42,102 bases of DNA from positions 1-42,102 of the forward strand of contig JAICMO010000007.1 of NCBI GenBank assembly GCA_025929185.1, given 5' to 3'. Under the pieces are notes generated by a model. The model was not told where the DNA came from. It worked only from the letters and a program-made list of their open reading frames with translations, and searched no databases. This DNA comes from Pseudolabrys sp. (lineage in GTDB: Bacteria > Pseudomonadota > Alphaproteobacteria > Rhizobiales > Xanthobacteraceae). Below are positions 17,119 through 35,568 of the stretch, piece by piece (the stretch's first letter is position 1; the number at the start of each line of letters is the position of its first letter). The translations under genes and the position numbers were made by a program.

Positions 17119-18096
17119 TCATTTCTGGCAACTCGGGCAATAAAACGTCGAGCGCCCCTGCTGCACGATGCGCTTGATCTTGCCCTTGCAACCCCGCGTC
17201 GGACACGGCTTGCCCTCGCGATCGTAAACAAGAAAGTGGTGCTGAAAGTCGCCGAGCGACCCGTCGGCGCGGCGATGATCGCGCAAGGAGGAGCCGCCGG
17301 CCTCGATCGCGTCGTTGAGCACGGCCTTGATCGCGTCAACGAGCGCTGTAGCGCGCTCGTTCGGCTTGCCGTTGCGATCTGCAATCGAGGAGGCAACGCG
17401 TTTCGGCGACAGCCGCGCCCGAAACAGCGCCTCGCAGACATAAATGTTGCCGAGGCCGGCAACGACGCGTTGATCGCTCAGCGCCGCCTTTAGCGATGTC
17501 TTCTTTCCCGCGCAGGCTTTGGCGAGCATCGCCGCGTCGAATTCGTTGCCAAGCGGCTCCGGCCCCAAATTGCGCAACAAGGGTTCGGCGTCGAGCTTTT
17601 TGCGCGGCACGAGCTTCATCGAGCCGAAGCGGCGGGGGTCGTTGAACGTCACCACCGCGCCGTTCGACATGTGAAACACGACATGGTCGTGCGACGCGCT
17701 CTTCGAGCGCTCGTGATAGTAGGAGCCGGGGGTTCGGTGGCCGTCATCCTGAGGCGCCGGCTGCAAGCCGCCCTCGAAGGACGGCGTCGTCCTTCGAGGC
17801 TCGCGACCTGCGGTCGCTCGCGCCTCAGGACGACGATCTTGTTCCTTCCCGACACGGAACGAGCCCGACATGCCGAGATGCATCAGCAGCACGTCGCCCG
17901 ACGACAAATCGGCGAGCAGATATTTCGCGCGCCGGCCGAGACCTTCGACAGTCTTGCCCTCGATGAGTTTCTCGAAGTCGCGGGCGATCGGCCATCGCAG
18001 CCCGCGGTGGCGCACCTCGACCCTGGCGATGCGAGCGCCTTCCATCGCCGGCTCAAGGCCACGGCGCACGGTTTCGACTTCGGGAAGTTCGGGCAT
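17119..18096 (-). CDS. mutM: Formamidopyrimidine-DNA glycosylase MutM (Fpg) containing an in-frame palindromic-repeat insertion
   Basis: [17 protein letters not shown]-terminus, [28 protein letters not shown]-terminal zinc finger [28 protein letters not shown]. Confidence 0.95.
17741..17836. repeat. Family A palindromic repeat inserted in frame within mutM
   Basis: CCGTCATCCTGAGGCGCCGGCTGCAAGCCGCCCTCGAAGGACGGCGTCGTCCTTCGAGGCTCGCGACCTGCGGTCGCTCGCGCCTCAGGACGACGAT; resembles intergenic family A copies. Confidence 0.8.
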
Positions 18097-18100
18097 GCGC

Positions 18101-18198
18101 ACCTCATCCTGAGGAGCCCGCAAAGCGGGCGTCTCGAAGGATGAGGTGCGTCAATCCTCATGGTTCGAGACGGCGCTTCGCGCCTCCTCACCATGAGG
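18101..18198. repeat. Two adjacent palindromic repeats (family A, then CCTCATGGTTCGAGACGGCGCTTCGCGCCTCCTCACCATGAGG) between mutM and ubiE
   Basis: ACCTCATCCTGAGGAGCCCGCAAAGCGGGCGTCTCGAAGGATGAGGT at 18101-18147 and the second hairpin at 18156-18198. Confidence 0.9.
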
Positions 18199-19183: not shown

Positions 19184-20755
19184 ATGATCTCCGGCCTTTC
19201 CCACCTCGCGCGTCTCGCCCGCGCCGGTTTTGTGTTTGCGCGCGAAGGCGTGTTCGCGCTGGTCGACACGCGGATGCTGCCGTTGCCCGCGAAGGCAGCC
19301 ATCGCTTTCGCGCGCCTGTTCGAGCGGCCGAGCGCGCGCTCCGGTCATGGCAGGCTTTCCGCCGCGCTCACCCGCCTCGGGCCGACCTACGTCAAGCTCG
19401 GGCAATTTCTGGCGACGCGCGCCGACGTTGTCGGCCCGGTGATCGCGCGCGATCTGGAAAGCTTGCAAGACAAGATGGCGCCGTTCCCGCAGGCCGACGC
19501 GGAAGCCGCTATCATGGCCGCATTCGATAAGCCGCTCTCAAGCGTGTACCTGACGTTCGGCCCGGCGGTCGCCGCCGCCTCCATCGCGCAAGTGCACCGC
19601 GCCGAAGTCGAAGAGAACGGCGAGCGCAAAACCGTGGCCGTAAAAGTGCTGCGCCCCGGCATCGAGCGGCGCTTCAAATCCGAGCTCGCCAGCTTCTTCT
19701 TTATCGCGCGGCTTGCCGAGAATTGGTCGGCGGAAGCGCGCCGGCTGCGGCTGATCGAAGTCGTCGCCACGCTCGCCCGCTCGGTCGCCATCGAAATGGA
19801 TTTCCGTCTGGAAGCAGCGGCGCTCTCCGAAATGGAGGAGAACACGCGCGAAGATCCCGACTTCCGCGTCCCCGCGGTCGACTGGAATCGCACCGCGCGC
19901 GAAGTGCTGACGCTCGAATGGATCGAGGCAACGCCGCTCAACGATCATGCGACGCTCGCAGTCAAAGGCCACGATCTGCCGACGCTCGGCCGCAAGGTGA
20001 TCCAGAGCTTCCTCCGCCACGCGCTGCGCGACGGCTTTTTCCATGCCGACATGCATCCGGGCAATCTGTTTGTCGACGATGCCGGCAATCTCGTCGCCGT
20101 CGACTTCGGCATCATGGGGCGGCTCGGGCCGAAGGAGCGCCGTTTCCTCGCGGAGATCCTGTTCGGCTTCATCACCCGCGACTATCAGCGCGTCGCCGAA
20201 GTGCACTTCGACGCCGGCTACGTGCCGCGCACTCACTCGGTGGAGAATTTCGCGCAAGCGATCCGCGCCATCGGCGAGCCGATCCATAACCGCACGGCGG
20301 AAGAAATCTCGATGGCGAAGTTGCTGATGCTGCTGTTCGAGGTGACGGGTCTGTTCGACATGCGCACGCGACCCGAGTTGCTGCTGCTGCAAAAGACGAT
20401 GGTCGTGGTCGAGGGCGTCGCCCGCGCGCTCGATCCGAAGCTCGACATGTGGAAGACCGCCGACCCGGTCGTGCGCGAATGGATCGGCCGCAAGCTTGGG
20501 CCGGTCGGCAAGGTCGAGGACGCAATCGAAGGCGCGGGCGAGATCGGCCGCTTCCTGGGCGACGTGCCGAGCCTGCTGATGCGCGCCGGCACGCTTACCG
20601 AGCAGATCGATACGGCCACCCGCGACGGCATCGTTTTGGCGCCGGAAACGGTTGTTGCGATCGGCGCAGCCGAGGCCAGGCGGAACCGCTGGCTCACAGC
20701 GGGGGTCTGGATCGGGGTTATCGTGTTGATCTGGATTGCTTTTTCAATGTATTGA
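19184..20755 (+). CDS. ubiB: Ubiquinone biosynthesis regulatory kinase-like protein UbiB
   Basis: LTRLGPTYVKLGQFLATRADVVG, AAASIAQVHRAEV, DGFFHADMHPGNLFVDDAGNLVAVDFGIMGRL, C-terminal TM segment. Confidence 0.96.
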   Translation: MISGLSHLARLARAGFVFAREGVFALVDTRMLPLPAKAAIAFARLFERPSARSGHGRLSAALTRLGPTYVKLGQFLATRADVVGPVIARDLESLQDKMAPFPQADAEAAIMAAFDKPLSSVYLTFGPAVAAASIAQVHRAEVEENGERKTVAVKVLRPGIERRFKSELASFFFIARLAENWSAEARRLRLIEVVATLARSVAIEMDFRLEAAALSEMEENTREDPDFRVPAVDWNRTAREVLTLEWIEATPLNDHATLAVKGHDLPTLGRKVIQSFLRHALRDGFFHADMHPGNLFVDDAGNLVAVDFGIMGRLGPKERRFLAEILFGFITRDYQRVAEVHFDAGYVPRTHSVENFAQAIRAIGEPIHNRTAEEISMAKLLMLLFEVTGLFDMRTRPELLLLQKTMVVVEGVARALDPKLDMWKTADPVVREWIGRKLGPVGKVEDAIEGAGEIGRFLGDVPSLLMRAGTLTEQIDTATRDGIVLAPETVVAIGAAEARRNRWLTAGVWIGVIVLIWIAFSMY

Positions 20756-20778
20756 TTGCAATGATTGCAATGCAATCA
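20753..20778. promoter_or_regulatory. Iterated repeat/palindrome TGATTGCAA-TGATTGCAA-TGCAATCA upstream of coaBC, candidate operator
   Basis: Tandem 9-mer TGATTGCAA x2 followed by inverted half TGCAATCA; 20762-20778 is a perfect palindrome TGATTGCA-A-TGCAATCA; ends 22 nt before the coaBC ATG. Confidence 0.6.
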
Positions 20779-20800: not shown

Positions 20801-22219
20801 ATGGCCAGCATCACCATCCGCCAGCTCGACGAGGCGCTGAAAAAGAAACTGCGCCTGCGCGCCGCGCGCAACGGTCGCTCGATGGAAGATGAAGTGCGCA
20901 CGCTCTTGCGCGAGGCCGCCGATGAGATCGGCGGCGAAATTCCGCAAAAGGCCGCGCGGCCCGGCAAAGCTGCTTCCGCGCCACGACGCGCACCGATACC
21001 CGCAGCGGAAGGTGACAGGCGCGTGCTGCTCATCGTCGGCGGCGGCATCGCGGCTTACAAATCGCTCGATCTCGTCCGCCGCCTGAAAGAGCGTGACATT
21101 TTCGTGCGCTGCATTCTCACGAAAGCGGCGCAGGAATTCATCACGCCGCTCTCTGCTGGCACGATCACCGGCGAGCGCGTCTTCACCGATCTGTTCGACC
21201 CCGCGCATGAATTCGATGTCGGCCACATCCGGCTCGCGCGCGAATGCGACCTCATTGTTGTCGCACCCGCTACCGCGGACCTGATGGCGAAGCTCGCCGG
21301 CGGACGCGCCGACGATCTCGCGACCGCCGCGCTGCTGGCGACAAGCGCGACGGTGCTGCTCGCGCCGGCGATGAATCCGCACATGTGGAGCAACAAAGCG
21401 ACGCAGCGCAATTTCGCGCAGCTTGCCGCCGACGGATTCGAATTCGTCGGCCCCAACGAAGGCGAGATGGCGGAAGCAAACGAGCGCGGCGTCGGCCGCA
21501 TGGCCGAGCCGCTGGAGATCGCGGCCGTGGCCGAGCGTTTGCTCGCGCCGCAAACACTTGCGCTCGCCGGCAAGCATGTGCTCGTCACGTCGGGACCGAC
21601 GCACGAGCCGATCGATCCCGTGCGTTACATCGCCAACCGCTCGTCGGGCAAGCAGGGAAACGCCATCGCGCTTGCCGCCGCGCAAGCAGGCGCGCATGTC
21701 ACGTTGATATCCGGGCCGGTGAATCTGCTCGATCCCGCAGGCGCGTCCGTCATCAAGGTCGAGACCGCGCGCGAGATGTTGAAAGCGGTCGAGCGCGCGT
21801 TGCCGGCGGACGTCGCGATCTTTGCCGCCGCGGTCGCCGATTGGCGCGTGGCAAACGCCGGCGCGCAAAAAATCAAGAAGAAGGCAGGCCAAGCGACACC
21901 CGAATTGCCGCTCGTCGAAAATCCCGACATTCTTGCGACCATCGCGAAACGCAAATCGCAGCGTCCGAAGCTGGTGATCGGGTTTGCCGCCGAGACGGAA
22001 AATGTCGTCGCCAATGCGAAGGCGAAACTCGCGAGCAAAGGCTGCGACTGGATTCTGGCGAACGATGTTTCGCCCAAAACGGGCATCATGGGCGGCGACC
22101 GCAACACCATCACGCTGGTGACCGCGACAGCATCGGAAAATTGGCCGACGCAATCGAAGGAGGGCGTCGCACGGATGCTGGTGGAGCGGATTGCGAAGGA
22201 GATGGCACGGAATGACTGA
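20801..22219 (+). CDS. coaBC: FitA-like RHH domain fused to bifunctional phosphopantothenoylcysteine decarboxylase / phosphopantothenate-cysteine ligase
   Basis: N-terminal RHH MASITIRQLDEALKKKLRLRAARNGRSMEDEVRTLLREAADE; then CoaC (VLLIVGGGIAAYKSLDLVRRL, PAMNPHMWSNKATQRN) and CoaB (VTSGPTHEPIDPVRYIANRSSGKQGNAIA, KIKKKAGQATPELPLVENPDIL). Confidence 0.95.
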   Translation: MASITIRQLDEALKKKLRLRAARNGRSMEDEVRTLLREAADEIGGEIPQKAARPGKAASAPRRAPIPAAEGDRRVLLIVGGGIAAYKSLDLVRRLKERDIFVRCILTKAAQEFITPLSAGTITGERVFTDLFDPAHEFDVGHIRLARECDLIVVAPATADLMAKLAGGRADDLATAALLATSATVLLAPAMNPHMWSNKATQRNFAQLAADGFEFVGPNEGEMAEANERGVGRMAEPLEIAAVAERLLAPQTLALAGKHVLVTSGPTHEPIDPVRYIANRSSGKQGNAIALAAAQAGAHVTLISGPVNLLDPAGASVIKVETAREMLKAVERALPADVAIFAAAVADWRVANAGAQKIKKKAGQATPELPLVENPDILATIAKRKSQRPKLVIGFAAETENVVANAKAKLASKGCDWILANDVSPKTGIMGGDRNTITLVTATASENWPTQSKEGVARMLVERIAKEMARND

Positions 22220-22230
22220 TCGAGTGTTTA

Positions 22231-22355
22231 TCCGTCATCCTGGGGCGCGGCCCCGGCCTCGAGCCGGGAGAGCCTCGAAGGATGACGGGCGCAGACTCGC
22301 AGGCCGTCGCCCCTCGCGGCTCGGTGCTTCGCACCGAGCACCTCAGGGTCACGGA
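22231..22355. repeat. Composite family A palindromic repeat between coaBC and dut
   Basis: CCGTCATCCTGGGGCGCGG...CCTCGAAGGATGACGGGC... and GGCTCGGTGCTTCGCACCGAGCACCTCAGGGTCACGGA. Confidence 0.8.
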
Positions 22356-22363
22356 TCAAACGC

Positions 22364-35426: not shown

Positions 35427-35446
35427 GAGCGATCGCTCGCGCGCCT

Positions 35447-35568
35447 TCATCCGTCCTCCTGAGATGCGAGGCGCGCAAGCGCCGAGCCTCGAAGGATGAT
35501 GGCCATAGCGCCTCGGGCCGTCGCCCTTCGAGGGCTTCGCTGCGCGAAGCCACCTCAGTGGTGACGGA
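35447..35568. repeat. Composite family A palindromic repeat between addB and addA
   Basis: CATCCGTCCTCCTGAGATGCGAGGCGCGCAAGCGCCGAGCCTCGAAGGATGATGG... and CCCTTCGAGGGCTTCGCTGCGCGAAGCCACCTCAGTGGTGACGG. Confidence 0.8.

Follow-up and report, generated by a model that had tools for sequence, protein, structure and literature searches.

A conserved three-box array as the probable operator of a FitA-like RHH domain fused to CoaBC in Pseudolabrys-type Xanthobacteraceae

Little is known about how the supply of CoA is controlled, and before inhibition by CoA thioesters was reported no information on the regulation of CoaBC was available (PMC7794376). In the stretch of Pseudolabrys sp. DNA analyzed here (42,102 nucleotides, referred to as the window), coaBC encodes an enzyme with an N-terminal RHH domain, and a short repeat lies directly before the gene. 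The locus raises the question of whether the repeat is the operator of the fused domain and, if so, where both came from. We consider it very probable that the FitA-like RHH of CoaBC uses this 26-bp array as its operator and thereby regulates coaBC, most likely by autorepression, and that domain and operator derive from a FitAB/VapBC-type toxin-antitoxin (TA) operon. If true, an essential enzyme of the pathway would be under direct feedback control by a repressor that is part of its own chain.

The array and the fusion protein

The array reads TGATTGCAA TGATTGCAA TGCAATCA (whole string, TGATTGCAATGATTGCAATGCAATCA), and the letters bear out the initial annotation, which had described two tandem 9-mers followed by an inverted half. 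It is better described as three 8-bp boxes of the form TGNNNNCA at a 9-bp pitch, with the layout TGATTGCA-a-TGATTGCA-a-TGCAATCA (Table 1). Boxes 2 and 3 form the perfect 8-1-8 palindrome already reported at 20762-20778, and a second 8-1-8 palindrome at 20755-20771 overlaps it. The array had also been called AT-richer than its surroundings, and its G+C content is indeed 35%, compared with 64% in the window as a whole and 58-67% in the flanks; likewise, the coordinates agree with an element that overlaps the ubiB stop codon and ends 22 nt before the coaBC ATG at 20801.

Table 1. Coordinates of the array and the adjoining features in the window
Feature	Position	Strand	Basis or remark
Putative operator array, whole 26 bp, three boxes at 9-bp pitch	20753..20778	.	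Footprint; single copy found in genome
Box 1, TGATTGCA	20753..20760	+	Overlaps ubiB stop TGA 20753-20755
Box 2, TGATTGCA in the window	20762..20769	+	Genus footprint
Box 3, TGCAATCA on + (= TGATTGCA on -)	20771..20778	-	Window letters, genus footprint
ubiB, gene upstream of coaBC	19184..20755	+	Stop codon within box 1
coaBC, RHH-CoaC-CoaB fusion, 472 aa	20801..22219	+	PF22513, PF02441, PF04127, TIGR00521
FitA-like RHH domain, CoaBC residues 2-40	20804..20920	+	PF22513, FitA match, T5/R7 invariant
Flexible linker, CoaBC residues 45-69	20933..21007	+	pLDDT below 50

The RHH domain scores 60.6 bits against the PF22513 profile (cut-off 27) and is followed by Flavoprotein and DFP domains, and the protein reaches 403.6 bits against the TIGR00521 equivalog (cut-off 219.7). 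Mycobacterium smegmatis CoaBC (PDB 6TGV) is the same bifunctional enzyme (match E 1.5e-99), and the PAMN motif (P189-A-M-N192) and the KxKK motif (K357/K359/K360) are invariant in 29 fusions. The only antitoxin structure to match the RHH was that of FitA (2h1o, 2bsq), with E 5.7e-6 for the family profile and 0.004 for the single sequence. T5 and R7, on the presumed DNA-facing strand, occur in 76 of 76 distinct fusions, although T/Q/K and R/K/H would also have passed the detection pattern, and S27 and E29 are likewise invariant across these 76. An AlphaFold2 monomer model has two confident RHH helices (11-24 and 28-43), and its CoaBC body is modelled well; an RHH monomer by itself is modelled poorly, and the strand pair of the RHH cannot appear in a model of a monomer. 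Judged from these matches, an enzyme and a DNA-binding domain appear to be joined in one CoaBC chain, as expected of a trigger enzyme. A literature search, which missed the subscription journals and is weak evidence for that reason, found no CoaBC with an RHH or other DNA-binding domain.

Within the window, the statistics of the array are modest. Simulated first-order Markov windows contained on average 2.2 8-1-8 palindromes and 0.66 tandem 9-mers each, and a palindrome together with a tandem 9-mer within 18 bp arose in 3% of the simulations, so that chance is only mildly low. The in-window case being not strong, we rely on comparison with relatives, and this comparative evidence is decisive for the reality of the repeat.

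Conservation and copy number of the array

Relatives were collected by the similarity of their proteins, with no regard to their DNA; the genus here means Pseudolabrys-type Xanthobacteraceae, and the footprint statistics leave out loci L090-L151, which were selected by the pattern itself. The initial annotation had staked its proposal in advance on finding the repeat in relatives with the RHH fusion, and the array stands just upstream of coaBC in all 35 genus RHH-CoaBC loci for which the coaBC start was recovered. It was found before none of the unfused coaBC genes among 34 upstream regions of the order, which gave 7-13 mismatches over the longer stretches searched, as in shuffled sequence. 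The 35 genus loci hold 31 distinct arrays, each with at most three mismatches in 24 positions, and their proteins differ by 20-30%; column information is about 2 bits at the fixed columns inside the array and falls to about 0.1 bit beyond both edges. Of the 35 loci, 34 have TGATTGCA as box 1 and the remaining one has a single change in it, box 2 keeps TG....CA in 34 of the 35 around a variable center (among relatives, TGATATCA, TGGTATCA, TGGCATCA and TGACATCA), and box 3 is TGCNATCA in most. The mean number of mismatches is 1.3 at the 9-bp pitch versus 7.6-9.4 at other pitches (80 loci, some of them chosen by pattern). Outside the genus, fused loci likewise have the array or boxes of it, partly rearranged: Bradyrhizobium-like genomes (6-9 Mb; the name is provisional) have TGATTGCA-n-TGCAATCA plus TGATAGCA-n-CGCTATCA before fused coaBC, with box pairs about 6 bp apart and a third box that is weak in some, features that count against the operator reading, and families f24 and f16 have TGATTGCA-t-TGCTATCA and TGATTGCA-t-TGCAGTCA-t-TGCATGCA.

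The modest in-window statistics, taken alone, would suit an array that is there by chance or is a dispersed REP-like repeat at a gene junction, but the array is single copy in the genome and is kept across families at coaBC, only where the RHH is present. The 42-kb window holds no TGATTGCA or TGCAATCA boxes beyond the three of the array, and a search of the 3.6-Mb genome that allowed up to two mismatches gave the 17-bp palindrome once. Of 44 genus genomes searched, 42 gave exactly one array and two gave none (reversed control, 0); of these two, G036 has its coaBC cut by a contig end, and in G006 box 3 has diverged (locus L025). Copy number and comparison with relatives refute the identity as a dispersed repeat, and an origin by chance or as a REP-like element is vanishingly improbable.

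The variation among relatives also bears on the reading of the array as an RNA element, either a hairpin of boxes 1 and 3 in the 5' leader or a terminator, which is suggested by the reverse complementarity of these two boxes in the window. Over 35 loci no compensatory change was seen and box 3 varies against a constant box 1: at pair 4-21, A, C, T or G in box 3 stands opposite an invariant T, and at pair 7-18 C stands opposite A. Furthermore, box order is either all direct (L025) or inverted, there is no U-run, and standalone RHH genes have the same array. The hairpin was rejected on the absence of compensatory changes, and an RNA element of any kind is barely credible.

We also scanned 85,462 species genomes for TGATTGCANTGNNNNCANTGCAATCA while ignoring proteins, a search in which about 0.2 matches would be expected by chance (our own arithmetic, assuming even base composition). 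It returned 62 places, of which 56 stand upstream of a FitA-like RHH gene. In 48 cases this gene is an RHH-CoaBC fusion, in 6 a standalone FitA-like RHH and in 2 an RHH truncated where the fetched sequence stops. The 6 places without an RHH comprise five TGCATGCA repeats (Arthrobacter, Paenarthrobacter) and one hairpin in a Lachnospiraceae MAG. The Arthrobacter and Paenarthrobacter loci (L106, L107, L111, L115 and L135) contain several TGATTGCA-n-TGCATGCA-n-TGCAATCA arrays that are not followed by an RHH gene and seem to form a distinct family of palindromic repeats.

No PF22513 protein other than CoaBC was found in the window's genome, which is 90% complete, and since the array is unique as well, the simplest reading is that of one regulator with one target, itself. 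A specific operator at its own gene, another hallmark of a trigger enzyme, thus appears to be present as a conserved single-copy footprint. Together, the footprint, the protein-blind matches and the pairing of a single array with a single FitA-like RHH support the initial prediction that the repeat fits an operator for the fused domain. The array could instead serve a separate FitA-like antitoxin acting in trans on coaBC, the fused RHH being a passive relic, as standalone FitA-like antitoxin genes do bear the same array. However, that 90% complete genome yielded no second PF22513 protein, the invariance of T5, R7, S27 and E29 indicates that the fused RHH is under selection, and with one array per genus genome a separate antitoxin would lack its own; control in trans is therefore distinctly improbable.

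Relation to toxin-antitoxin operons

The RHH-CoaBC locus is not a TA module, because no toxin gene adjoins: no PIN gene lies beside RHH-coaBC in the window, where the neighbors are ubiB and dut. Elsewhere, the same array or its boxes accompany a standalone FitA-like antitoxin gene and a PIN toxin gene (L045, and, with the PIN gene assigned by eye and following the antitoxin, L104, L109, L137 and L142). The gene order in Aliihoeflea sp. 2WW is ubiE-ubiB-array-RHH antitoxin-PIN toxin-coaBC, an array-RHH-PIN cassette lies directly before unfused coaBC in G251 and G194, and L097 has the order ubiB-array-antitoxin-coaBC-dut, with the toxin absent. FitAB/VapBC-type genes directly upstream of unfused coaBC were observed in L131, L181, L183, L182 and L097; a PIN gene is present beside the antitoxin in L131, L181 and L183, and the L097 antitoxin stands alone.

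In a CoaBC tree, L097 branches basally to the fused clade of Xanthobacteraceae (99/97). On well-supported branches of this tree the RHH label has to change at least three times, and therefore RHH capture or loss occurred more than once. The putative operator and the RHH match those of FitAB/VapBC-type TA operons, and the gene orders trace a path from TA operon to fusion. Our data suggest a model whereby a TA operon of this type first occupied the ubiB-coaBC junction, its toxin then disappeared, and the DNA-binding part of the antitoxin was subsequently fused to CoaBC via the flexible linker, with the operator retained; this order of TA operon, toxin loss and fusion is deduced from the arrangements found in present-day genomes. 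Genome comparison establishes a conserved candidate operator that is strictly tied to the RHH and occurs once per genome, and it also establishes the intermediate gene orders. The series of free TA operon, TA operon beside coaBC, antitoxin with coaBC and fusion, in which the operator would have been kept throughout, would represent a rare record of stepwise domestication.

Predicted autoregulation and related systems

We infer that the RHH of CoaBC binds the array, that the sign of regulation is repression and that one enzyme and one operator form a feedback loop. Judging from RHH structures in general, each RHH dimer would read one TGNNNNCA box, and the CoaBC oligomer may gather RHH dimers so that the three boxes are occupied side by side at the 9-bp pitch, a spacing of adjacent boxes that would suit lateral contacts between dimers. 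RHH bound before coaBC would repress the gene, lowering transcription once the enzyme is plentiful, and the many RHH copies per oligomer would raise the local concentration and could allow the ligand state to be sensed. Control of RHH-DNA binding by CoA or acyl-CoA, by substrates or by the FMN state is conjectural.

A sigma-70 promoter scan of the window recognized none, so that an overlap of the array with RNA polymerase sites is a prediction. The overlap with the ubiB stop codon, the short gap to the ATG and array-ATG distances that range from 10 to 49 nt among loci would also be compatible with a fused RHH that activates at the array, or blocks read-through from ubiE-ubiB, instead of repressing a coaBC promoter. 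Against this, RHH antitoxins of TA operons generally autorepress (PMC3920265, PMC4803016), and a CTAAGT-like sequence lies 8-9 nt downstream of the array in a subset of loci, which would put the -35 inside the array. Activation or a read-through block is therefore unlikely, and autorepression, as in RHH antitoxin operons, is the likely outcome by analogy.

Several known systems resemble RHH-CoaBC in part. The 8-bp box of FitA is TGATAGCA/TGCTATCA, and its operator boxes lie about 20 bp apart. PutA is a flavoenzyme with an N-terminal RHH and the domain order RHH-PRODH-P5CDH, and BirA, NadR and other such trigger enzymes use HTH-type domains. FitA/FitB (VapBC-type, Neisseria gonorrhoeae, PDB 2BSQ and 2H1O) shares with CoaBC the RHH family PF22513 and an N-terminal strand with R7, and FitA-form boxes occur in the Bradyrhizobium-like relatives of RHH-CoaBC; in contrast, RHH-CoaBC is toxin-free, has its RHH on an essential enzyme and has boxes that abut at a 9-bp pitch. 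FitA binds the regulatory region of the operon that encodes it (PMC3920265). PutA, which acts in proline utilization, is a single-target regulator of its own gene, and BirA, NadR and other trigger enzymes combine a biosynthetic enzyme and a DNA-binding domain in one chain (PMC8249747). Self-regulation, as in PutA, is predicted for CoaBC, likewise a flavoenzyme with an N-terminal RHH, and so is feedback on its own pathway, as exerted by BirA and NadR; RHH-CoaBC differs from PutA in serving essential CoA biosynthesis, in the FitA-like antitoxin type of its RHH and in an operator apparently inherited from a TA operon. Mycobacterial CoaBC is a dodecamer inhibited by CoA thioesters, but the M. smegmatis enzyme lacks the RHH, and no transcriptional role is described for it in the same report (PMC7794376). 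By analogy, RHH-CoaBC probably works like PutA and other trigger enzymes, with a member of the FitA-like RHH family as its DNA-binding part.

CoaBC is fused to a different DNA-binding domain elsewhere. An N-terminal HTH_3 (Cro/CI-type) was observed on CoaBC in families f32 and f16 (L152-L158 of genus g114, L184 and L067/L160); seven of the eight g114 genomes (family f32) and G204 carry the fusion. In most of the f32 HTH_3-CoaBC genes an inverted repeat closely precedes the ATG, with the form TTACAT-N3-ATGTAA in L153-L155, TTAC-N7-GTAA in G204 and a looser form in L156-L158. Another HTH_3-CoaBC, in G099 (f16), has GGATATATCC twice. The HTH_3 and RHH fusions differ in DNA-binding fold but share the placement of a symmetric repeat, which, on the sequences compared, is convergence. 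Residues 1-65 of the CoaBC of L185 (G241) form an extension that by eye resembles a degenerate HTH and has no Pfam match; it was excluded from the HTH fusions counted, although the tree labelled it as HTH.

These parallel HTH fusions suggest that selection for CoaBC autoregulation acts repeatedly. We tentatively propose, at somewhat less than even confidence, that CoaBC became a CoA-responsive single-target repressor in Hyphomicrobiales through capture of a TA antitoxin and its operator, and in other lineages through a Cro/CI-type HTH, the essential vitamin-pathway enzyme repeatedly becoming its own sensor and repressor, with DNA binding switched by ligand or oligomer state.

Some further observations concern coaBC matches elsewhere and other parts of the window. 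Matches in G227 and G320 (f32) and G218 (f16) lie in very long open frames of 956-959 aa; the upstream frame of G320 is unlike a normal protein, so a true ubiB-coaBC fusion is probably not present. The Fpg frame of mutM/fpg (window 17119-18123, minus strand) seems to hold an in-frame insert, which matched no other DNA in a comparison within the window. Between coaBC and dut, positions 22226-22360 hold an interspersed repeat that is about 70% identical to a copy at 35446-35568.
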